This document shows, one piece after another, positions 6,325 to 64,000 of a stretch of 64,000 bases of DNA. A model generated the notes under the pieces. That model was not told the DNA's origin, did no database searches, and saw only the letters and a program-made list of their open reading frames with translations. The position numbers were made by a program, and so were the translations under genes. The stretch's first letter is position 1; each line of letters opens with the position of its first letter. The DNA is from an uncultured Anaeroplasmataceae bacterium (GTDB taxonomy: Bacteria; Bacillota_I; Bacilli_A; Acholeplasmatales; Anaeroplasmataceae). Location of the stretch: assembly GCA_947589245.1 (NCBI GenBank), contig CANQBD010000004.1:1-64000 (forward strand). Direction: 5' to 3'.

Positions 6325-7032
6325 TTAAAAATATTCGTATGTTGCTTGTCCGTAGCAACATTTAGATTTGGTATCGGTCGAAGCATTTTCTTTGTTCTCA
6401 GGAGCATTCAAAGTTGAAAACTCCTCTTTCACCAAATAACCAGCAGCATCATATTCTACAGTAATATTCCATTTACCACTACATAATAGATCTACTAAAT
6501 CATCAACGAATCCTTCATTCCACAAATCATAATTACTAATTTTAAGTTCCTTATTAACACCAAAAAGTCTAACAATGAAGCCGCCTTCAGCTCTAGAATA
6601 GTAATATATTTTATCCATTCCAGAAGGACGATACAATTTAGACTCTAGCTGATATCTAGAAGACCAATTTGTATCTGTTTCATTCCAAGTTTCTTTTGTT
6701 ATATGCATAGGAAGTCGCAAATAGTAAGAAGCACAAGTTTTTGTATAATCATTTGTTTCATCTTCAGAAGAAGGTTTAACAGGATATTCTTTATAACTCA
6801 TCACCTGTTCCAATTTAGTTTTTAGCTTATTTTCAGATAAATTAAAGTAATTTATATATCCTGTTACTTCGATATCCTTAGGAGAAACACTATCTTCTAA
6901 ATTATTAATAATAGCTGCTAATTCTTCTTCACTTAAATAGTCTTTTGCAGGGGCTTTTCCATCAGAACATCCTGATAGAAAAACAGACAACAGAGCAAAT
7001 AAAACGAGAACAAAATATTTAATATGTTTCAT
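6325..7032 (-). CDS. lipoprotein of unknown function, coupled to the next gene
   Basis: The start is set at MKHIKYFVLV (7032), preceded by AAGGAGGAAAAA; the ORF track's 7053 start would place seven residues before the signal. The lipobox is VFLSGC. The mature region of about 210 residues has an acidic, helical opening (YLSEEELAAIINNLED) followed by Tyr-rich beta-like sequence and ends with a Cys-Cys pair near the C-terminus (KSKCCYGQ). It lies 22 bp after the MalK gene and 1 bp before the next lipoprotein gene, inside the maltodextrin operon. I recognise no family. A role on the surface in starch use is inferred only from position. Confidence 0.8.
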   Translation of the reverse strand: MKHIKYFVLVLFALLSVFLSGCSDGKAPAKDYLSEEELAAIINNLEDSVSPKDIEVTGYINYFNLSENKLKTKLEQVMSYKEYPVKPSSEDETNDYTKTCASYYLRLPMHITKETWNETDTNWSSRYQLESKLYRPSGMDKIYYYSRAEGGFIVRLFGVNKELKISNYDLWNEGFVDDLVDLLCSGKWNITVEYDAAGYLVKEEFSTLNAPENKENASTDTKSKCCYGQATYEYF

Positions 7033-7054: not shown

Positions 7055-9595
7055 TTAGTAAATCTTGATATCCATAGATTTTTCTGTAATATGGACCTTA
7101 GAAATATCGAAGGTTACCTTGATTGTTTCTTTATTTACTTCTTCATTTACTAAAATATAAACTTCAGAGGTTCCATAATCATCTTCATAGGAGCAATGTA
7201 AGTATTTCTTATTTTCAAAATCTAAAACATCTAATACCTTAAGCTCTAGACCCTCATCTCCTATTTGATATGCATCATGTGGTATTTCAATAATATATTG
7301 TTTTGTAAAGACTTTAATACCTAGACTTTGAATCATCTTATTAGAAATTGCATCACTTGATAATGTGATCAATTGATTTGTTTTCAAGAAGAAAATAATA
7401 TTTGCTAAATTCAATTTCGTTTGATATTCAGCATTTAAAGCTTTCATATCTTTTTTATAATCCCTAGTTAATGCCTTTACAGGATAAGCCTCATTCTTAC
7501 ACTTATGAACTAAATCCTTATGATCCTTCTTTAAACTGTCTACTGTACGCTTGTATGTACCCTTTAAAGCATTTAAATCGCTCTCATAAGAAACGGCCTC
7601 TAAATTAATACGCTTATCTAACTCATTCTTCTTTTCAATACCAATTGTTGCTTTAAATTCTCTCAATTCCTGATTTCTCTTACGGTAAGCATCCTTATCC
7701 TTGTTAATAAGCTTAAATTGTTCAAAGGAACTCAATTCATCTGCCTTAATCTTAGCATACATTTCATCAACTTCCTTGATAATTCTTGCGTTATTAGCTT
7801 GATGAGCTTCCTTAAGTCTTTTAGAACCAGTTTGTAGCTCTTCTTTTGCCTTTTTTAAAGCCTCCTGTAAGGTAAGTTTGCTTTGCTCTAACTCAGCAGC
7901 ATTCTTTGCTTCAACAGCCTTAGAATCAACCTTACTTGCTTCAGCACAATTTTGATTATATTCTTCTGTTCTTGCAGCAATTTTTGGTTCAAATTCAGCT
8001 TTTACAGCCTCAATTCGATCAGTTAATACTGAGTCATATTTAGTACCAACAAAGCTTTTTGCCGTTTGATAATTCATAAAGATTGCGTTAATTCTATCAT
8101 ATTCAGGAACAGCATCTAACACAACCTTGTTATTTTGAATGAATTTAATTTTCGTATAATCTAATTCAATTGCAATTTCTGTACCTTTTTCTAAAGGTTC
8201 AGTATGAGTTGCAAATAACAACTGCTTTCCAAATGGAATACCTACAAGATTTACAGTTCCAATTTGTTCTGAAAGGGAAACACTACAATTCTTTTCTTCG
8301 GAATTTGAGATTGTTACTGCAGATGTAGGCATTAACATATCATATGTTCCATCTTCTAAATGAATTGCTTTTGGTAAAGCAAACTTTGCTGTACCAAGTA
8401 CAATATTGCCATTCTTAATATCACAAGTAATCAAATTCTCAGATGGAATACGAGGATTAATTGTGCATTCTGTTTCTTTATCAAACATGTGCATTTTGTC
8501 AATAGTGACTGCACATTTAGTAATATCGCCTTTTTTCATGCCATAGCTAGATGTACCTTTTACAATAATGCGGGTAGAAGTTTCAGCAAAACCATCTCCT
8601 TGCATATTGATATCACCATAAATTAATGTTTCATTTCCTAACTCCTCAAAGTGAGAAATGCGAACATCTATAACATATTTTGATTTAGAAACAATCTCAG
8701 GATCAAAGGATAAATGTTCACAACGTAAGCCAATAATAACTTCTTTTTCACCATCAAAATATTGAGGTTGAACCTTAGCTAATAAAGATTGTGGAACATC
8801 TAAACTATTGTCGCTCCATTTAAAATCAATATGAATGTTATCTTTGTTTCTTGTCAAATTGGCATGAAAGAAATTCATTTGAGGAGTACCGATAAATCCT
8901 GCGACAAACAAATTGTTTGGATAGTCATAAAGATTCTTAGGATTATCAATTTGCATAATACGACCTAAACGCATGACAACAACTCTTGTTCCAAGTGTCA
9001 TTGCCTCTACTTGGTCATGTGTTACATAGATAAATGTTGTTTGCAATTCATCATGTAATTTTGCAATCTCGCTTCGCATTTGAGCTCTTAGCTTAGCATC
9101 CAAATTTGACAATGGTTCGTCTAGAAGCATTACCTTAGGATTTCTTAAAATAGCTCTACCTAAAGCAACTCTTTGTCTTTGCCCTCCAGACATTGCTCGT
9201 GGTTTACGGTCTAAGTATTCTGTTAAATCAAGAACCTTTGCAGCCCATAATACCTTTTCATGAATTTCAGCATTTGGAACATGTCTTAGCTTTAAACCAA
9301 ATGCCATATTTTCATATACAGTCATGTGAGGATATAGTGCATAGTTTTGGAAAACCATCGCAATATCTCTATCCTTAGGTTCAACATCATTTACGATACG
9401 ATCGCCAATGTATAATTCGCCTGCACTAATATCTTCCAATCCTGCAATCATTCTTAAAGTTGTAGATTTACCACAGCCTGATGGCCCAACAAATACAATG
9501 AACTCTTTATCTTCAATTTCCATTGTAAAGTCAGAAACGGCTTTTGTGCCATTCGGATAAACCTTATAAATATGCTCTAATCTTAATCCAGCCAT
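7055..9595 (-). CDS. MalK/MsmK-type ABC ATPase with a long coiled-coil extension
   Basis: Residues 1-240 are a canonical CUT1 importer ATPase: Walker A GPSGCGKST, signature MSGGQRQRVALGRA, Walker B VMLLDEPLSNLDA and H-loop THDQ. Residues about 240-375 are the usual regulatory TOBE domain (VIIGLRCEHLSF). Normal MalK/MsmK proteins end near 370; this one has 846. The additional part contains a second TOBE-like beta region (about 380-495), a charged alpha-helical coiled coil of about 230 residues (about 500-730, ELEQSKLTLQEALKKAKEEL), and a final beta domain (about 735-846, LKVLDVLDFENKKYLHCSY). It powers maltodextrin uptake with MalF and MalG, encoded upstream in the same operon. The role of the extension is unknown. 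Confidence 0.9.
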   Translation of the reverse strand: MAGLRLEHIYKVYPNGTKAVSDFTMEIEDKEFIVFVGPSGCGKSTTLRMIAGLEDISAGELYIGDRIVNDVEPKDRDIAMVFQNYALYPHMTVYENMAFGLKLRHVPNAEIHEKVLWAAKVLDLTEYLDRKPRAMSGGQRQRVALGRAILRNPKVMLLDEPLSNLDAKLRAQMRSEIAKLHDELQTTFIYVTHDQVEAMTLGTRVVVMRLGRIMQIDNPKNLYDYPNNLFVAGFIGTPQMNFFHANLTRNKDNIHIDFKWSDNSLDVPQSLLAKVQPQYFDGEKEVIIGLRCEHLSFDPEIVSKSKYVIDVRISHFEELGNETLIYGDINMQGDGFAETSTRIIVKGTSSYGMKKGDITKCAVTIDKMHMFDKETECTINPRIPSENLITCDIKNGNIVLGTAKFALPKAIHLEDGTYDMLMPTSAVTISNSEEKNCSVSLSEQIGTVNLVGIPFGKQLLFATHTEPLEKGTEIAIELDYTKIKFIQNNKVVLDAVPEYDRINAIFMNYQTAKSFVGTKYDSVLTDRIEAVKAEFEPKIAARTEEYNQNCAEASKVDSKAVEAKNAAELEQSKLTLQEALKKAKEELQTGSKRLKEAHQANNARIIKEVDEMYAKIKADELSSFEQFKLINKDKDAYRKRNQELREFKATIGIEKKNELDKRINLEAVSYESDLNALKGTYKRTVDSLKKDHKDLVHKCKNEAYPVKALTRDYKKDMKALNAEYQTKLNLANIIFFLKTNQLITLSSDAISNKMIQSLGIKVFTKQYIIEIPHDAYQIGDEGLELKVLDVLDFENKKYLHCSYEDDYGTSEVYILVNEEVNKETIKVTFDISKVHITEKSMDIKIY

Positions 9596-9607
9596 ATTTT
9601 CTCTCCT

Positions 9608-11227
9608 TTACTTAAGTATTGCTATACTATATGGTGGCATTTTAATTGTTTTGCCTTCTATTATTCCTACATATTTTTCTTCTTCACCTGTTATAACAAT
9701 TTGACCAACTACTGAATCAAATTCAAATTCTTGAAAATCAATAGTTAAATCTTCTGTAGGTGAAAAATTAAATATGATACCAATTTCGCTACCATTGTAG
9801 GTTTTTTTAATTACTAATATCTTGTTATCTCTATCCTGTTTTAACAAAGAGACTTCGCCTCTTGCTATTTCAGGATTTTGATTACGAATGAGCAAAACCT
9901 TTTTATAATAGTTATAAATAGAATTTTTATCCTCCATCTGTTCTTTTACAGTTGGATAAGGATATTCTTTCTTTGTAGTTCCACTTGGAGCATTACAATT
10001 TCCTTCCTCATTTGCTTCACCCCATAAAATAGGAATGCGAACATTTTGATCTGGAGCATTTGCATTTGTTCCAACTAGGCCCACTTCATCTCCATAATAA
10101 GTAAAAGTTGCACCATTCATCATTTGCAATAAAGCAAATTGAAATTTAGAATTGGATAAATTGCCTGATGATGTAAATCTTGGCATGTCATGGTTGTCCA
10201 AGAATGGAGCAGGAATATGCGTTCCTGCTATCTCGATATTTGAAAGTAAGCCATCATAATATCGATTAAGCATTTTACCCTCAAGGTTTAAGCAATTAAT
10301 TAAATAGCTTGAAGGAGTAGATACGCTTGCTTCAAAATTGAAGAAGGAATCAATCCCGCTTGTATAATAGCTTTCTAAAATGCTTGAACTAGTTTCCCAA
10401 CATTCACCAACAACATAGGCATTTGAATTTTTTGCTTTTACCCATTTACTAATTTGATTTAATAACTCGATATTTTTTGTTTGACTATTAATATAGTAGT
10501 ACTTTACCGCATCTAATCTAAAGCCATCAACGCCCTTATCCATATAGAAATCTATAATAGACTTAAATTCTTGCCGTACATTTGGATTATCACAATTAAA
10601 TTCTGGCATATCTGAGGAGAAATTCGCTTCATAATAGAAACTTCTTCCTGGAACCTTTTGATAGCCTGAAGGAGGATTGTCTCCATCATAGAAACTATAA
10701 AAATCTTTAAATGCCTCTTCTTCTGAAGTTAGCGGCAATCCCATAATATATTTTTGATGAGCTGTAGCCGCCTTATTAAACCAAGAATGATTTAGGCTCG
10801 AATGATTCAAAACCAAATCTAAGATGATTTTTATATCTCTTTTGTGACATTCTGATATAAGTTCTTCTAAATCAGACATCGTACCATAGGAAGAATCTAT
10901 TTGATAATAATCCTTAACATCATACTTGTGATAGGATGGAGAGGAATTAATTGGCATAAGCCAAATTCCAGTAAAACCTAAATCTTGAATATAATCTAGT
11001 TTACTAGTTACTCCCTTTAAATCTCCCTTACCATCGCCATTTGAATCATAAAAGGATCCTACAAAAATTTCATACCAATTACGATAATTGTCATCAACTT
11101 TATTCAACGTAGTTAAGTCCTCTTCTATACGTTTTCCGTAAGGAGCATTTTCTTCTTTTGCACAGCTTGTACAAACCATAAGAACTATCAAGCAAACTAA
11201 AGATAAGTATCTTCTTAAACTTTTCAT
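9608..11227 (-). CDS. surface lipoprotein alpha-amylase/glucosidase (GH13)
   Basis: The 539-residue protein has a lipoprotein signal (lipobox VCTSC). The GH13 barrel starts with WYEIFVGSFYDSNGDGKGD, which includes the calcium-site-like DxNxDGxGD. Catalytic regions are LDLVLNHSS (I, about 137), GFRLDAVKYY (II, Asp about 238), VVGECWE (III, Glu about 275) and FLDNHDMPR (IV, about 344). A small beta domain closes the chain. The pattern fits oligosaccharide-acting alpha-amylases or neopullulanases; exact specificity is open. It lies 5 bp after malG and 12 bp before the MalK gene, so it is made together with the importer and feeds it maltodextrins. Confidence 0.9.
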   Translation of the reverse strand: MKSLRRYLSLVCLIVLMVCTSCAKEENAPYGKRIEEDLTTLNKVDDNYRNWYEIFVGSFYDSNGDGKGDLKGVTSKLDYIQDLGFTGIWLMPINSSPSYHKYDVKDYYQIDSSYGTMSDLEELISECHKRDIKIILDLVLNHSSLNHSWFNKAATAHQKYIMGLPLTSEEEAFKDFYSFYDGDNPPSGYQKVPGRSFYYEANFSSDMPEFNCDNPNVRQEFKSIIDFYMDKGVDGFRLDAVKYYYINSQTKNIELLNQISKWVKAKNSNAYVVGECWETSSSILESYYTSGIDSFFNFEASVSTPSSYLINCLNLEGKMLNRYYDGLLSNIEIAGTHIPAPFLDNHDMPRFTSSGNLSNSKFQFALLQMMNGATFTYYGDEVGLVGTNANAPDQNVRIPILWGEANEEGNCNAPSGTTKKEYPYPTVKEQMEDKNSIYNYYKKVLLIRNQNPEIARGEVSLLKQDRDNKILVIKKTYNGSEIGIIFNFSPTEDLTIDFQEFEFDSVVGQIVITGEEEKYVGIIEGKTIKMPPYSIAILK

Positions 11228-32769: not shown

Positions 32770-33023
32770 TAAAATATAAAAAAGTCCTTAAATTTAAAAA
32801 TTTAAGGACGATTTGCTCGCGGTGCCACCTTAATTCTATAAATTGTTTGAAAAATTTATAGCTCTTAATTTAATCTTTAACGCAGAAAATACGAATGGTT
32901 CTACTCTAATTTCTTCCATCACTCAGAGGTGTTAAATACTATCATTCATTACCTATTTTTCACCAACCATAGATTCTCTTAAAATGAATTTTGATAGACC
33001 CTTCCTCATCTTAGTTTTAACAA
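32770..33023 (-). promoter_or_regulatory. T-box riboswitch leader of asnS
   Basis: On the minus strand the leader holds the conserved T-box AAGGTGGCACCGCGAGC (32815-32831). A terminator hairpin GTCCTTAAAT/ATTTAAGGAC with TTTTTT follows (32778-32809). Upstream, a long stem I carries the likely specifier codon AAC (Asn, 32931-32933) in TATTTAACACC. Uncharged tRNA-Asn binding should favour the antiterminator and turn on asnS. Confidence 0.9.
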
Positions 33024-56183: not shown

Positions 56184-56741
56184 ATGGAAAGTATTTCACA
56201 AATGTCACTTTTGGAAGTGGCTATCTATTTAATGGAACAAAAGAAAACCAAGCAACCAATAAGAGCTCTAATTCAAGAAGTATTAGAAATTAAAGGATTA
56301 GATGATTCTGATAGTTCGCTTGCAACCCAATTATATATAGATATAACTACTAGTTCAAAATTCGTTTATATGGGCGATGAAGAATGGGATCTAAAGGTTC
56401 GTCAATCCTTAGATGAATATGATAAGGATGGTGCAGCATTTAATTCTAAGAACGATGAATATGAAGATGAGGATGAATTCCCAGATGATTTAGATGATGA
56501 AGATCTAGATGAATATGCTGATGAAGATGACGAAGAAGAAGATGAAGATGAGGACGAATCAGATGAATATGATGATGAATATGAATCAGAAGATGATGAA
56601 GAAGATTCTGAAAACGAATATGATGAGGATGATTTAATTATCGATGATGAAATGACAGAAAGATATTCAGAAGATGATGATTTCAACGAGGATAAATATA
56701 ACGACCTTATGGATGATTATGAGGATATGTACGAAGAATAA
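56184..56741 (+). CDS. rpoE: RNA polymerase delta subunit
   Basis: The start is set at MESISQMSLLEVAIYLM (56184), which follows TTGGAGGAATTATT; the track's start is nine codons earlier. The first 85 residues are the folded HARE-HTH domain (KTKQPIRALIQEVLEIKGL, DEEWDLKVRQSLDEYD). The last 100 are an extreme Asp/Glu tail. Delta increases RNA polymerase recycling and promoter selectivity in Firmicutes. The long Ser ORF on the other strand is only its shadow. Confidence 0.94.
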   Translation: MESISQMSLLEVAIYLMEQKKTKQPIRALIQEVLEIKGLDDSDSSLATQLYIDITTSSKFVYMGDEEWDLKVRQSLDEYDKDGAAFNSKNDEYEDEDEFPDDLDDEDLDEYADEDDEEEDEDEDESDEYDDEYESEDDEEDSENEYDEDDLIIDDEMTERYSEDDDFNEDKYNDLMDDYEDMYEE

Positions 56742-56746
56742 AAAAC

Positions 56747-56788
56747 AGGCCTATTGGTAGAATTGTTCTACTTAGGCCTTTTTCACAT
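56747..56788 (+). terminator. terminator of rpoE
   Basis: AGGCCTA..GGTAGAA and TTCTAC..TAGGCCT form a long stem followed by TTTTTC. Confidence 0.85.
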
Positions 56789-56840
56789 AATTTCACATAA
56801 TTATATGATAATATTACATTATTTTTATTTTATAATATAG

Positions 56841-56967
56841 GTGTCTTAAGGGACAGTATCTATCTAAAAATCCCTATATAGATAGAAACTTTTTTCATAA
56901 GCAAACTATAACTCTCCCAATTTGAGTAAAGGGCAGCCTAACTTTAGGTTGCCCTTTATTCGTTTTT
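56841..56967 (+). ncRNA. candidate small RNA with pseudoknot and own terminator
   Basis: A TATAAT (56831-56836) with no clear -35 precedes a stretch without reading frame. It contains two interlocking pairings: AGGGA (56849-56853) with TCCCT (56871-56875), and CTATCTA (56860-56866) with TAGATAG (56879-56885). This is the order of an H-type pseudoknot. A strong terminator hairpin follows (AAAGGGCA.CCTA / TAGG.TGCCCTTT, 56928-56956, then TTCGTTTTTT). A second TATAAT (56972-56977) with TTGCCC 18 bp upstream, inside the hairpin, can serve the response-regulator gene. Confidence 0.45.
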
Positions 56968-56999
56968 TGTTATATAATATTGTCTAAAGGGGTGATATT

Positions 57000-57665
57000 T
57001 TGTATAAAATTGCAGTTGTTGAAGATGAAAAGAATTTAGCAAGCCTTGTTGCTAAATATCTTGAAAATGAGGGCTATAACGTTGTGTGTTATGCAAACGG
57101 TGAAGAGGCTCAAAAGCATCTTGATGATGACATTGAGCTTTGGATTTTAGACATTATGCTTCCTGGAATCATCAGTGGTTATGATTTAATTAAAGAAATT
57201 CATCTCCACAATATCAATACCCCTGTTATTTTCACTTCGGCACGTGATCAAACAATTGATCGAGTAATGGGACTAGAGCTTGGTAGTGATGATTACATTT
57301 CTAAGCCGTATTCAATTAGGGAATTAGTATTACGTGTTAAAAATCTTTTAAATAGAACCTATGGAAACAATACTTCTACTAAAGAATATATAATAGGTGA
57401 TTATTTAATTGATAAAGATAAAAGGAGCGTTTATTTTAAAAAAGAGTTGATTCAATTAACCTCTAAAGAATATAATTTGTTTTTATATCTAGCTGAAAAT
57501 CCTGGTAAGGCATTTTCGCGAGAACAAATTTTAAATGCTGTTTGGGGTTCTGATTATTTTGGTAGTGATCGAGTGGTTGATGATTTGTTAAGAAGATTAC
57601 GCCAAAAGCTACCTAATTTATTTATTGAAACAATTTATGGTTATGGGTATAGGTTATTAGTATGA
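57000..57665 (+). CDS. OmpR-family response regulator
   Basis: The 221-residue protein starts with TTG after AAAGGGGTGATAT. The receiver domain has the acidic pair VVEDE, the phosphoacceptor Asp in WILDIMLPG (about 51), the switch Thr/Ser (VIFTSARD) and Lys (YISKPYS). The winged-helix DNA-binding domain ends in FIETIYGYGYRLLV. It overlaps the sensor-kinase gene by 4 bp. Target genes are unknown; cardiolipin synthase downstream is a candidate. Confidence 0.94.
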   Translation: MYKIAVVEDEKNLASLVAKYLENEGYNVVCYANGEEAQKHLDDDIELWILDIMLPGIISGYDLIKEIHLHNINTPVIFTSARDQTIDRVMGLELGSDDYISKPYSIRELVLRVKNLLNRTYGNNTSTKEYIIGDYLIDKDKRSVYFKKELIQLTSKEYNLFLYLAENPGKAFSREQILNAVWGSDYFGSDRVVDDLLRRLRQKLPNLFIETIYGYGYRLLV

Positions 57666-58951
57666 GGAAGATTTCAATATCAAGTCAGATAATTATTTTA
57701 TTCGTTTTAATTATGCTAGTAGCTTCTTCGGTTTTTTCCTCCCTTGTAATACTTGGGGTTAGAAGAACAGCGGAAAAAGAAATATATGCTCGCCTTTATA
57801 ATTATTGTTTAATAGCTGAATCTTTCGATTCGGATCATGATTCAACAAATTTTCGTGATATAACTATTTATTTTATAAAAGTTAGTGAAGACACTCTTCT
57901 AAAAAGTGCTAATATTGAAACGATTATTAGTGAAAGTGATTATAATAATATTATCTCAGAACTAAATAAAAGTGAAGAACAGGCGATTTTTTCTAAAAAA
58001 ACCAAGAACTTTGAAGGACAAACCATATATTTTGTCATGCGGAGCACTAACTATGGTCAAGCCTTTACTTTAGTTATGGCCAATGACAGTTATGTGCACA
58101 ATCTAGTAAGAAATCTATCACTTCAGTTAATTGCTATCTTTTTGGTTATTATCTTTTTGGCTGTCTTAGTAATCATTATTTGGAGTCGATTTTTTATTAA
58201 AAGAATTAACACACTTAAGGATCATATTAGGCATTTACCTCAAGGGGGCTATGATTTAACCCTTGTTGATGATGGCTTAGATGAAATAGGCGATTTATCT
58301 AGAGCGGTTGAGGAAATGCGTATAGAAATCCAGCATAATGAAAAAATAAAACAGGAGATGCTTCAAAATATTAGTCATGATTTTAAGACACCAATTGCGG
58401 TTATAAAATCTTATGCTGAAGCTCAACAAGATGGCATGGCTGGGGAAGATAGTAGTAAAATAATTATTAATCAAGCTGAAATTTTAAAAAATAAAGTCAA
58501 TCGGTTATTACAATATAATTCTTTAGAATATTTGGCTAAAGACCATGAATTTGAAGATGTAAACATGAAAAATGTTGTTTTAGATGTCATTGATAATTAT
58601 CGTTTTCAAATAAACGTTAATATTGAATTAGATTTGACTGAAGATATTTATTTTAAAGGCTATTATGAAAATTATTGTACAGTTGTTGATAATATTATTG
58701 ATAATGCTCGAAGATACGCCAAGAGTAAAATTAAAATCATTTTAAAAAAGGATCGGTTAAGAATCTATAATGATGGTGAGGCAATTAATGAGGAATTTAT
58801 CAAAAATGGTTTTAAGCCTTACGAAAAAGGCAGCAAAGGTGAATTTGGATTAGGAATGTCCATTGTGCAAAAGATTGTTGATTTTTTTGGTATGACTTTA
58901 ATTGTTAAAAATGAACCGGTTGGTGTGTCAATAATTATAACTAAAATGTAG
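57662..58951 (+). CDS. membrane sensor histidine kinase
   Basis: The 429 residues have a first membrane helix (about 10-32), an extracytoplasmic sensor part of about 110 residues, a second helix (about 155-180), a HAMP linker, the H-box LQNISHDFKTPIAVIKSYAE (His about 238), and an ATPase domain with N-box VVDNIIDNARRYA and G-box KGEFGLGMSIV. It pairs with the response regulator encoded just before. The signal is not recognisable; an envelope stress role is possible because a phospholipid synthase gene follows 20 bp later. Confidence 0.93.
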   Translation: MRKISISSQIIILFVLIMLVASSVFSSLVILGVRRTAEKEIYARLYNYCLIAESFDSDHDSTNFRDITIYFIKVSEDTLLKSANIETIISESDYNNIISELNKSEEQAIFSKKTKNFEGQTIYFVMRSTNYGQAFTLVMANDSYVHNLVRNLSLQLIAIFLVIIFLAVLVIIIWSRFFIKRINTLKDHIRHLPQGGYDLTLVDDGLDEIGDLSRAVEEMRIEIQHNEKIKQEMLQNISHDFKTPIAVIKSYAEAQQDGMAGEDSSKIIINQAEILKNKVNRLLQYNSLEYLAKDHEFEDVNMKNVVLDVIDNYRFQINVNIELDLTEDIYFKGYYENYCTVVDNIIDNARRYAKSKIKIILKKDRLRIYNDGEAINEEFIKNGFKPYEKGSKGEFGLGMSIVQKIVDFFGMTLIVKNEPVGVSIIITKM

Positions 58952-58971: not shown

Positions 58972-60516
58972 ATGACACAAAATGAAAGAAGAGGCTTACC
59001 GCTTTGGAAAAGAATAATATTTTTAATTTTAACGTTGATTATATTTGCTATCCAAATAAGCTTATTCACTTTATTATTTCAAATTAATTTTTCTAATCGC
59101 TTAAATATCTATATCTATTTATTAATTGAGCTTGGAGCTTTTTTGGTGGTTTTACATATCATTCATAAACCAATTTTAGCTAGCTATAAGCTTACATGGT
59201 CAATTTTAATTTTGGTGTTGCCATTACCATTTCTTTTGTTATATTTTTTAAATTCAAGAAGTAGAAAGCTACCAAAGCGTAAACAGCATAAGTTGAATGA
59301 AGCTCTAGAACTTTATACTGTGGATAATAAGATGATAACTAAATTACAAGAAATTGATCCTATGGCAGCCAAAACAGCAAGAATTATTCATAGTAATACA
59401 AACTATCCCCTTTACAATAATACAAAATTTACTTTCTTAAATGATGGCGAAGTAAAGTTTCTCGATTTTATTGAAGAGCTTAAGAGGGCTCAAAAATATA
59501 TTTTTATTGAAACATTTATCATTGGCGAAGGCTTCTTGTTAAATGAGCTATTACAGGTTCTAAAAGCTAAAGGCGAAGCTGGTGTTGAAATTAAAATTAT
59601 CTATGATGATTTAGGATCTAAAGCAACAATAAAATCAAAAACAATTAAAGACATAACCAAAATTCCTAATTGTAAAATAGTAAATTATAATCCTTTAGGC
59701 TTGAACATAAACCCCGCATTTAATTATCGTGATCACCGCAAGATTACGATAATTGATGGTAAAATTGCTTATTGTGGTGGTGATAATTTAGCTGATGAAT
59801 ATATTCATAAAAAAACGCGTTTTGGTTTTTGGCGGGATAATTGTGGCAAATATGAGGGCGATGCCGTAAACAGTTTTATTGGAATGTTTATTGAAACATG
59901 GTATATGTCAACAAAGGAAATACTCCAATTAGGAGATTATCTAGCCACTTTAGAAACAGAAGAACAATCAAGCTATATAATGCCTTTTGGTGATGGACCT
60001 TCCGATAAAAGTGATTGTGCATATGATGTATTTAGATCTTTAATTTCCAATGCAGGCAAAACCTTATATATCTCAACACCTTATCTTGTTATTGATGATG
60101 CAATGATTGAAGGCATTGTTTTAGCTTGTAAAAGTGGTGTAGATGTAAGAATATTAATGCCAGGCATACCAGATAAAAAAACAGCCTTTTATTTAGCTAG
60201 ATTTCATTATCGTGAAATCTTAAAGGCTGGTGGTAAAATATATGAATTTACAAGAGGCTTTAACCATGCTAAAAACATTATGGTAGATGGAAAATATGCT
60301 TTTATTGGCACAATCAACATGGACTATCGTAGTTTATTTCTTCACTACGAATGTGGTGCTTTAGTTTTTTTAGATGATGAAATAAAGAAAATGCAAGAAG
60401 ATTTCTTAAAAGCTTGTCAAGAAAGCAAGCAAATTACTTATGAATATTGGCATAAACGACCATTTTATCAAAAACTAGTGGCATATATAATTTATTTATT
60501 TGCCCCAATGTTTTAG
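58972..60516 (+). CDS. cls: cardiolipin synthase
   Basis: The 514-residue phospholipase-D-superfamily enzyme has two N-terminal membrane helices plus one near residue 80, and two HKD motifs, DHRKITIIDG (about 255) and NHAKNIMVDG (about 431). It condenses two phosphatidylglycerols into cardiolipin at the membrane. It is 20 bp after the sensor-kinase gene and likely in the same transcript. Confidence 0.93.
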   Translation: MTQNERRGLPLWKRIIFLILTLIIFAIQISLFTLLFQINFSNRLNIYIYLLIELGAFLVVLHIIHKPILASYKLTWSILILVLPLPFLLLYFLNSRSRKLPKRKQHKLNEALELYTVDNKMITKLQEIDPMAAKTARIIHSNTNYPLYNNTKFTFLNDGEVKFLDFIEELKRAQKYIFIETFIIGEGFLLNELLQVLKAKGEAGVEIKIIYDDLGSKATIKSKTIKDITKIPNCKIVNYNPLGLNINPAFNYRDHRKITIIDGKIAYCGGDNLADEYIHKKTRFGFWRDNCGKYEGDAVNSFIGMFIETWYMSTKEILQLGDYLATLETEEQSSYIMPFGDGPSDKSDCAYDVFRSLISNAGKTLYISTPYLVIDDAMIEGIVLACKSGVDVRILMPGIPDKKTAFYLARFHYREILKAGGKIYEFTRGFNHAKNIMVDGKYAFIGTINMDYRSLFLHYECGALVFLDDEIKKMQEDFLKACQESKQITYEYWHKRPFYQKLVAYIIYLFAPMF

Positions 60517-60629: not shown

Positions 60630-63600
60630 TTAAGCAACAGGCTTTAAATTAATAGCAAATATATTAATGCCGCCTGTGAAATTTTCAAGAGTATATGATT
60701 TACCACAAGTTAATTCAAATGTAAATGAAACAGCATTATTTTCTGTAATTGTACATGTTTGAAGTTCTTGTGTGCCATCTAAAACTTTAAAACCTCTTGT
60801 AAAATCGTCTGATGTTGCAGTAGCGCACCAAACAGTAACTTCAACGGTACCTGTATATTGTGATAAGTTGATAGTTAATTTACGACCAGCACCATTTAAT
60901 TTTAATCTACCAGTAGTAGTTAAATCGTTGCCATCAACATCTTTTACTTTTTTGCCACTTGCAGCGTCCATGGTAAATGCTTTGCCAGAAGTACCATTTA
61001 AAACAACAATACCTTTGTTATCCCAATCATAATCTTCTGTTATACTACCAGCAGTAATTGTGTCAACTGAGAAAGTAAGTTTAGGAGCAGCATTAGGCTC
61101 AGGATCAGTAGTAGAATCTTTTACAGCCACCATTTCAAAGGCATAGAAGTTAAATGTATTGTCTACATCAACATTATAAATCTTTCCACATTCTAAGTCA
61201 GCTTCTATAGTAAATACAGTTGATTTATCAGCAATAGTTTTAGAAGCAAGTGTCTCACTGGTTGGAGAAACTATAGAAATAGTACGTGTTGTATCACCAG
61301 AACCTACAAAGAAAATAGTTAATTTTACTTTTCCTTCATAGCCTGTTAGATCAATCTTTAATGTATTGGCTTTATTTTCTTGTCTAATTCGACCAGCTGT
61401 TTTTAAAGAACGATTACCAATTGTTAAACTCTTACCACTTGCTGCTTCATAATTCCAACCTTTTCCATCGTTACGAGCAGTGAATTGAATAATGCCATTT
61501 GCAGCAGGATAAACTTGGCCACCCTTATCTGCTAAATCTAAGTCAGACAAATCATCTGCTGTGATTTCAAATTCTGGAGTATTAACTGAATTTGCCCACT
61601 TAATATAGACATCAGTAGTTTCTGCGGTTAATTTAGCATTGGTATCAAATGCAGTTGTTAAAGTAGAATCAGTATAGAAGCCATCAAATGTTTTTCCTGC
61701 AGGGATTCTTTCTTCTTTAATTGCTAAATCAATTGCAGTCTTTAGTTGTGTCTCAGTTACATATGAACCAACGTATGAAACATATGATAATGTTGTGCTA
61801 TCAAATTCTGAACCATCTGGATTCTTTAATACAATACTAGCATTTGGTAAGATACCTCTATATTCTTCCCTGCCTTCTCCAATTTGCGCAGAAGTAAGAG
61901 TTGCACCAGCCCAAGCAGAAGTATAAGTAGTTGTACCATTATATGGGCCAAATACCTCAAGTAAGCTATCGTATAATTCAGCTTGTGCAGCAGTTGCATA
62001 AGTTACAGTGTTCTTATAAGTATCACCTTCAAAATCAGCAGGAACTAAAGCACCAGCACCCTCATTGTTATATTCAAATAATTGAGAAGCTACTGGGTCA
62101 GCATTCATCTTGGTATAACGATCATTTAATTTACTTTCAGTATTACCATAAGCCTCTTTAGAAATATGAGCGCCTAAATTAGAATTCATAACCATAACAG
62201 TCATGCCAGATTCCCAACCACGAGCGATTGATACAGAACCATCCATAACATTTTCATCAGCAACAAAATCACAATTATTGAAAATATAACCATATTTGAT
62301 ATTATTGCTGCCAACAACATTACCCTTAGTAGCTACGACATAACCACCATTAGTTACATCTTTTCCAGCGCCAATAGAACGGATTGTTGAGTTATCAAAG
62401 TAAGCTGTTGCATCATCACCGAAAATGTAATCGGTACGACCTTCAATATCACAGTGTACATAATATTGACGACCTTTTCTAGCATACAATGTATCATGAT
62501 ATGAAGAGAATACACAGTCTAAGAATACGGCTTGATCTGCTTCAACTAATGCAGCTACAGCTTGAGTATCAGAGGTCATAGTTAATGATTTATTATATAA
62601 TTCATTAGTATTATAATAATTCATAAATTTTACGTTATAGGCAAAAAATCCAACTGCATCAGCTCTAACAGAGACAGTAGCAGAACCATCTGTTGAATAA
62701 GCAACAGATTCACTAGGATCAACAAGACCATTTAAGGCATCAAACACAATAGTTGCAGGAGTTGCGCCTGGAGTAGGATCTGAAGCTGTCGGATCCATAG
62801 TAACAATTGTCAAATTAGGAACGTTGAATTCAACCTTTTCCCAATATTCTACTCCACTAACTAAGTAAATTATGAATTGAGTGTAGTCAGTATATTCTAA
62901 CAAGTTGAAAATTTGCATTGCTTGATTAATTGTGTTTACTACAACTGGTTCACTACTAAATCCATGCTCAACTGCAAATGTAGCGCTTGGATCAACTAAA
63001 GCGGAAGCATAATCACCAATTTCAGTATCGATAGTTATAACTTCAATATCATAATTAGCTGTTAATTCTGTATCTCTTGAATAAGTGATTGCTACACTTT
63101 GATTACCAGGAGTATTTAAATTTAATTCACTAGAATTAATTGAATATTCACTCTCAGCTAATAAGAATTCAATATAATCATCACTTTCAGGCAATTTACA
63201 TTTTGCCTTAACTACTAAATTATCAGCTTTAAATTGACTGCCAGTTAAATATATAACTTGAACATGTTGAGTAACACGGTTACTTGACAATGTATAATCA
63301 TATAATACTAGTTCTTCTGGCTCACAAACATTAACTGTATATGTTTGAGTGTATGTCTTATCTGCACTAACATTATATTTGACAGTTACAGTTTTCTTGC
63401 CGGCTGTAGTGAAGTCATCGTTGGTGATTGTTAATTTATCAACATCGATAGGATCTTCTCTACCATTATCATAAGTTAAATAGGCATTTAATCCCTCAGC
63501 ACTAAATTCTCTACCTAACAAGAAGTTAGTAGTTACACCAGAAAGATTAAGTCTAATTCCGGTTGTAGGACCTTGAGGTAATTTTTCTGTGATAGAAATA

Positions 63601-64000
63601 GCTGTGAAACGTACAGAACTAGCACTACCGATAGTATATTCGCCAGCAGGTAAATTAGCAACAACTTGGGCATCACATTTTACACTGTTAGCTACTTCAA
63701 CTGTGTGGACAACTTCGCCAGCAGCATTTTTTACAGTAACAGTAGTATTGCTACCTGCACCTTTAGCAATGAAAGTAATTGTATTACCAGTGCCTTCACC
63801 TCTAAGAGTTACTTTAATATTCTTTTTTTGGTTATTTAAACAATCATCACCACTTGAAACATCAAAATAAACACCGGCTTCAACAGTAAATCTACCAAAG
63901 GTTGTATCTTCAGTAGTTTTTACCTTATCGCCCAATAATTCTCTTGGTGCTTTTAAATCAAACACTGTTGTTACAGTATCATATGCTTGATCCCATTTAG
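60630..64000 (-). CDS. large secreted pectin methylesterase (CE8), 5' end outside the window
   Basis: The frame stays open from the track's GTG (63965) to the window edge (KWDQAYDTV is still coding), so the N-terminus is missing. The visible 1120 or so residues have an N-terminal beta module, two Ig-like domains (about 130-320), the CE8 beta-helix (about 330-690) with DTQAVAALV, YHDTLYA (about 490), GRTDYIFGDDATAYF (about 511) and IARGWESG (about 581), all key pectinesterase motifs with both catalytic Asp residues and the Arg. One InlB-like repeat (AGKTFDGFYTDS) and two tandem beta-sandwich modules (SGKSLTIGN, SGKAFTMDA) follow. It demethylates pectin so that the PL1 lyase at 45156 can act. 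Confidence 0.88.
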   Translation of the reverse strand, partial: KWDQAYDTVTTVFDLKAPRELLGDKVKTTEDTTFGRFTVEAGVYFDVSSGDDCLNNQKKNIKVTLRGEGTGNTITFIAKGAGSNTTVTVKNAAGEVVHTVEVANSVKCDAQVVANLPAGEYTIGSASSVRFTAISITEKLPQGPTTGIRLNLSGVTTNFLLGREFSAEGLNAYLTYDNGREDPIDVDKLTITNDDFTTAGKKTVTVKYNVSADKTYTQTYTVNVCEPEELVLYDYTLSSNRVTQHVQVIYLTGSQFKADNLVVKAKCKLPESDDYIEFLLAESEYSINSSELNLNTPGNQSVAITYSRDTELTANYDIEVITIDTEIGDYASALVDPSATFAVEHGFSSEPVVVNTINQAMQIFNLLEYTDYTQFIIYLVSGVEYWEKVEFNVPNLTIVTMDPTASDPTPGATPATIVFDALNGLVDPSESVAYSTDGSATVSVRADAVGFFAYNVKFMNYYNTNELYNKSLTMTSDTQAVAALVEADQAVFLDCVFSSYHDTLYARKGRQYYVHCDIEGRTDYIFGDDATAYFDNSTIRSIGAGKDVTNGGYVVATKGNVVGSNNIKYGYIFNNCDFVADENVMDGSVSIARGWESGMTVMVMNSNLGAHISKEAYGNTESKLNDRYTKMNADPVASQLFEYNNEGAGALVPADFEGDTYKNTVTYATAAQAELYDSLLEVFGPYNGTTTYTSAWAGATLTSAQIGEGREEYRGILPNASIVLKNPDGSEFDSTTLSYVSYVGSYVTETQLKTAIDLAIKEERIPAGKTFDGFYTDSTLTTAFDTNAKLTAETTDVYIKWANSVNTPEFEITADDLSDLDLADKGGQVYPAANGIIQFTARNDGKGWNYEAASGKSLTIGNRSLKTAGRIRQENKANTLKIDLTGYEGKVKLTIFFVGSGDTTRTISIVSPTSETLASKTIADKSTVFTIEADLECGKIYNVDVDNTFNFYAFEMVAVKDSTTDPEPNAAPKLTFSVDTITAGSITEDYDWDNKGIVVLNGTSGKAFTMDAASGKKVKDVDGNDLTTTGRLKLNGAGRKLTINLSQYTGTVEVTVWCATATSDDFTRGFKVLDGTQELQTCTITENNAVSFTFELTCGKSYTLENFTGGINIFAINLKPVA

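Follow-up and report, generated by a model that had tools for sequence, protein, structure and literature searches.

A multicopy, CU-rich small RNA of the Anaeroplasmataceae, probably under the control of a neighbouring two-component system

Introduction

A segment of about 125 nt, situated upstream of a two-component operon in the genome of an uncultured Anaeroplasmataceae bacterium, is strongly supported by its sequence and that of its relatives as the gene for a stand-alone small RNA (sRNA) with its own promoter and terminator. It is best regarded as a new family within the class of multicopy, CU-rich sRNAs controlled by two-component systems, and the set is probably activated by the OmpR-type system encoded next to the segment. 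The segment lies in a stretch of 64,000 nucleotides, hereafter the window. The sequence-only reading of this DNA had proposed either an independent small RNA or a ligand-sensing attenuator. The first of these is strongly supported by a second genomic copy, family-wide homologues, covariation and copies that face convergent genes.

The locus

The 5′ neighbour of the sRNA locus is rpoE, encoding RNA polymerase delta (TIGR04567), and on the 3′ side lies a cluster of response regulator, sensor kinase and cls genes (Table 1). The ends of the sRNA were assigned from the -10 box (5′) and the terminator (3′). Three elements of the original description hold: the -10 box is TATAAT, the terminator is indeed strong, with a 17-pair stem (-27.9 kcal/mol, z -9.3), and no reading frame is conserved between the two. 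P1, P2 and loop lengths vary freely among copies, as expected of a segment with no conserved reading frame.

Table 1. Features of the sRNA locus and the adjoining two-component operon (window coordinates)
Feature	Position	Strand	Basis or remark
Direct-repeat box, putative response-regulator site	56786..56812	+	Sequence; motif upstream of most copies
sRNA promoter, -10 hexamer TATAAT	56831..56836	+	TATACT/TATAAT at the equivalent place in most copies
sRNA gene, about 125 nt	56842..56968	+	Found by the covariance model at 116 bits (E 3.5e-21)
Hairpin P1 (UGUCU / GGACA)	56842..56855	+	Compensatory changes in relatives
Hairpin P2 (UCUAUCUA / UAGAUAGA)	56859..56886	+	UCCC in loop at 56871-56874
Near-invariant G-poor unpaired core CUUUUUUCAUAAGCAAACUAUAACUCUCCCAA	56889..56920	+	CUCUCCC at 56912-56918
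Intrinsic terminator	56924..56968	+	Stem 56924-56940 / 56945-56961; T-run 56963-56968
Probable separate promoter of two-component operon	56949..56978	+	TTGCCC 56949-56954, 18 nt, TATAAT 56973-56978
OmpR/PhoB-type response regulator, putative activator	57000..57665	+	Pfam Response_reg, Trans_reg_C
Sensor histidine kinase	57662..58951	+	HAMP, HisKA, HATPase_c
Cardiolipin synthase (cls)	58972..60516	+	TIGR04265, above its cut-off

Elsewhere in the window there is a T-box leader (Rfam RF00230, 98.9 bits, 32801-33021, minus strand). Facing cls, at 60630-63965 on the minus strand, is the gene for a protein of 1111 amino acids, part of which we take, by eye, to be pectinesterase-like.

Distribution

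The second copy in the same genome is found on another contig, after the acetate kinase gene (ackA), and has 74% identity to the first (E 4e-18). BLAST gave homologues in 34 of 60 relatives. When records titled Anaeroplasmataceae or Acholeplasmatales, with Anaeroplasma bactoclasticum ATCC 27112 among them, were taken as the genomes of the family, covariance model R1 located the sRNA in 49 of 55, and in 28 of the 31 good ones, although the weakest matches, with E around 0.001-0.01, may be chance. There are usually 1-3 copies per genome and up to seven in one. A pattern scan of GTDB contigs yielded matches whose record titles read Anaeroplasmataceae, Anaeroplasma, Acholeplasmatales or the like, and again the cultured A. 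bactoclasticum ATCC 27112 was one of them. Scans of the order and class outside the family gave borderline matches only (G092, G094). Tandem or clustered copies occur in L101, L135 and L141, and L086 has four within 8 kb (1835-1946, 2014-2127, 6563-6680 and 9523-9636), which lack most of P2.

Assignment to a known Rfam family was rejected, as no family of Rfam 15 reached its gathering score on the sRNA. A phage or plasmid origin was likewise set aside, there being no match in phage or plasmid records; L142, the sole pattern match on a viral contig, and L095 were dropped as chance matches because the rest of the element is absent from them.

Conserved fold

Three separate hairpins, P1, P2 and the terminator, make up the conserved fold together with an unpaired core. 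The segment as a whole is much more stably folded than its shuffles (z -6.7, 0 of 200). In the model-based alignment of 82 copies 91.9% of the cells pair. The covariation score of this alignment, which had been fitted to the structure, was 0.545, compared with 0.192 in shuffles and 0.07-0.15 with the partners slid. Changes on both sides were seen in all five P1 pairs, six of the seven P2 pairs and all 12 modelled terminator pairs. Because the alignment was structure-fitted, and because RNAalifold on a free MAFFT alignment recovered the terminator alone, an alignment-free test was added in which the stems of each copy were compared with those of its own shuffles. P1 averaged 5.9 pairs vs. 3.7, and P2 7.4 vs. 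4.6. Compensatory changes are visible by eye for P1 in L096, L105, L116, L126 and L140, and for P2 in L133 and L135.

The H-type pseudoknot proposed on inspection of the single sequence did not survive comparison among the copies. A GGGR 5′ of P2 that could meet the CCC of the P2 loop is available in only three of the 82 copies, so that the interlocking pairs are not conserved; in the window copy the GGGA at 56850-56853 forms part of the loop and 3′ arm of P1. A long-range helix in the minimum-energy fold of the window copy, UG-CUUA:UAAG-CA, was also rejected as not conserved, since P1 compensates in L096, L105, L116, L124, L126 and L140 while UAAGCA is unchanged.

The core, between P2 and the terminator, contains about 6% G. 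Most columns of CAUAAGCAAACUAUAACUCUCC are invariant across 50 aligned copies. UCCC is present in the P2 loop of 67 of 82 copies and in the core of 72 of 82; the window copy has none in its terminator loop. One locus missed by the model, L019 (genome G016), has upstream of the regulator a box, P1, P2 with UCCC, a C-rich single strand and a terminator, with a diverged core.

The promoter box and its probable regulator

Upstream of the -10 hexamer is a repeat of the form CATAAT-N4-CATAAT-N5-GATAAT, with half-sites at 56786-56791, 56796-56801 and 56807-56812 and thus spacings of 10 and 11. The third half-site occupies the -35 position and ends 18 nt before the -10. OmpR-family regulators bind direct repeats of ~10-11 bp over the -35 region. 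The motif TTTC[AC]CA[TC]A was found upstream of 54 of 78 copies, irrespective of the adjoining genes, compared with a mean of 0.2 in shuffled sequence. A search for the double repeat in its own genome, allowing up to 3 mismatches, gave a single instance, and a scan of the family for the box with up to 1 mismatch returned mostly sRNA copies, with some background. The ackA-linked copies of the genus, including the second copy of the own genome, have no clear box.

The box also precedes genes of other kinds, which may be further members of the regulon: in two genomes the gene is that of an ABC transporter ATP-binding protein (L222, L229), and in two different genomes that of a membrane protein (L235, L236). 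In L217 it is followed by a GTGTCTTA start and by TCTTTTCTCCCAAA, which may represent a divergent sRNA whose target motif is a different one.

In a sister family the orthologous regulator gene is likewise preceded by box-like repeats, after which come a short CU-rich stretch that is conserved, and a terminator. In L023, L024, L026, L027, L028, L305, L306 and L307 this region, some 150 nt 5′ of the regulator gene, contains CU-rich CTTATTTCTCCTTTTTT and a AAAGTGCC..GGCACTTT terminator; Rfam gave no match in four of the loci. The segment is perhaps a positional counterpart of the sRNA.

Control of the sRNA set by the two-component system is probable, since the direct-repeat box precedes most copies, linked to the operon or not. 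The OmpR/PhoB architecture of the regulator and the sister-family repeats before its orthologue point to the same control.

Proposed mode of action

The response regulator encoded just downstream would bind at the box, which would stand in for a -35 element, and would activate the box-bearing copies together. The RNA would then act through two CU-rich stretches that are exposed in most copies, the UCCC of the P2 loop and the CUCUCCC of the core. These, possibly with UUUUUUCAU, may mask the start codons and ribosome-binding sites of target mRNAs; the mRNA of the sensor kinase itself is perhaps one such target, as feedback. Both motifs resemble anti-Shine-Dalgarno sequences, and UUUUUUCAU complements AUGAAAAAA. 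We regard an independent, trans-acting sRNA of ~125 nt, activated by the regulator and pairing with ribosome-binding sites through CU-rich segments, as a reasonably probable account of the element.

The searches for targets constrain this account. In a biased sample of loci, the core gave -10.3 kcal/mol with translation starts and -7.6 with gene interiors; at translation starts the reversed core gave -8.5 and shuffled cores -9.8 ± 0.7. As the shuffled cores are almost equal, base composition may explain the general pairing of the core with translation starts. The best repeated candidate is the start of the sensor kinase gene (pairing z -2.45, 18 orthologues), which is only suggestive as a target because 14 gene families were tested, and the value is not significant after correction for them. 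The 13-nt complement GGGRGRGTTRTRG, with wobble allowed, was found in the 55 genomes only opposite sRNA copies, with one exception. A long antisense target was rejected, since no mRNA was found to match the core by a long, perfect complement; for the same reason, near-invariance over some 23 nt exceeds what a short seed needs. Pairing through short CU-rich seeds is the most likely mode, with protein binding as its main rival.

Alternative explanations

The attenuator version of the sequence-only reading, in which the terminator of a ligand-sensing leader would switch the regulator, kinase and cls genes in cis, has in its favour that 35 of the 80 placed copies immediately precede the response regulator gene, in the same orientation. 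The other 45, however, are elsewhere, including the own-genome copy after ackA, and 14 of these face a convergent downstream gene, while some copies are in tandem arrays. By eye, we take the neighbours of the unlinked copies to be ackA, yggS-like, queT-like/DUF368-like, ridA-like, rplS-like and ABC-transporter genes. Attenuation by alternative pairing was rejected, since the terminator arms paired with their own upstream part (-6.4 kcal/mol) as with that of a swapped copy (-6.2), with no sign of a matched competing pairing. The operon, moreover, probably has its own promoter beyond the terminator, as a TTGNNN in or just after the terminator 3′ arm, followed 16-19 nt on by a -10-like hexamer, is enriched at regulator-linked copies (14 of 35, vs. 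2 of 45 others); in the window its TTGCCC sits within that arm. A cis-acting leader is thus very unlikely. A genuine sRNA whose box belongs to some other regulator, the two-component operon being merely a neighbour, is also improbable, if less so. That reading would account for the absence of a clear box at the regulator's own probable promoter and at some sRNA copies. Against it stand the repeat of ~10-11 bp over the -35, which is the binding pattern of the OmpR family, the position of the two-component operon as the commonest neighbour of sRNA copies, and the box-like repeats before the orthologous regulator of the sister family.

The nature of the core is a separate matter. In an independent sRNA it could be the site at which a protein or the ribosome binds, as a decoy or scaffold, in place of an antisense element. 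The core is almost invariant across the family while its flanking stems change freely, it has no long mRNA complement, and its pairing with translation starts can be accounted for by its composition, all of which suit such a site. Yet the CU-rich motif is doubled, in a hairpin loop and in a single strand, the core is almost free of G, like known anti-Shine-Dalgarno sRNAs, and L019 has kept the CU-rich character although its core has diverged. We therefore consider a decoy or scaffold unlikely, though the least so of the alternatives to antisense pairing. Its fuller form, in which the roughly 23-nt core would be the protein or ribosome site of a two-component-induced, multicopy decoy or scaffold RNA confined to a single wall-less family, is rather unlikely; if true, the mode of action would be unlike that of the csRNAs or LhrC.

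Significance and comparison with known systems

To our knowledge, few regulatory RNAs have been described in Mollicutes-type bacteria, and a literature search on the subject found no relevant paper. The sRNA described here, family-wide and often multicopy, appears to be wired to a two-component system, as unrelated RNAs are in CiaRH/csRNA and LisRK/LhrC. Its host lineage is without a cell wall, on which stress systems of the CiaRH and LisRK type centre. Control and targets are directly testable, as there is a usable covariance model, the promoter box is defined, and a host, A. bactoclasticum ATCC 27112, is in culture.

RsaE, FsrA and SprD, the single-locus C-rich sRNAs of Firmicutes, share with the Anaeroplasmataceae sRNA a UCCC-type motif thought to cover the Shine-Dalgarno sequence, and differ from it in that no Rfam sequence match connects them. 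We are not aware that they form multicopy sets with a common box next to a two-component operon. All three have been named as UCCC sRNAs (PMC4132741).

LhrC1-5 of Listeria monocytogenes are LisRK-controlled RNAs of 111-114 nt, present in multiple copies, which cover ribosome-binding sites (PMC4132741). The present sRNA is similar in size, multicopy and G-poor, has its own terminator, and carries UCCC both in a hairpin loop and in the unpaired stretch that separates two hairpins; envelope-stress two-component control would be a further likeness. In contrast to LhrC it has two hairpins before the core, a single near-invariant core, a terminator loop that lacks UCCC in the window copy, and a host related to the Mollicutes. 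No Rfam family reached gathering score, and LhrC was absent even among the weak Rfam matches.

The csRNAs of streptococci are controlled by CiaRH and have been proposed to cover ribosome-binding sites (PMC3091779). They too are multicopy, with a regulator box of direct repeats shortly before the -10 and an unpaired region between stem-loops that is complementary to the Shine-Dalgarno sequence and AUG. Their box, TTTAAG-N5-TTTAAG, differs from the three-part repeat found here and is absent from 56740-56840; the RNA sequence is different, and in the Anaeroplasmataceae one copy is usually directly beside the regulator gene. A member of neither group by sequence or box, the sRNA has a layout that matches LhrC/LisRK and csRNA/CiaRH in its probable way of working.
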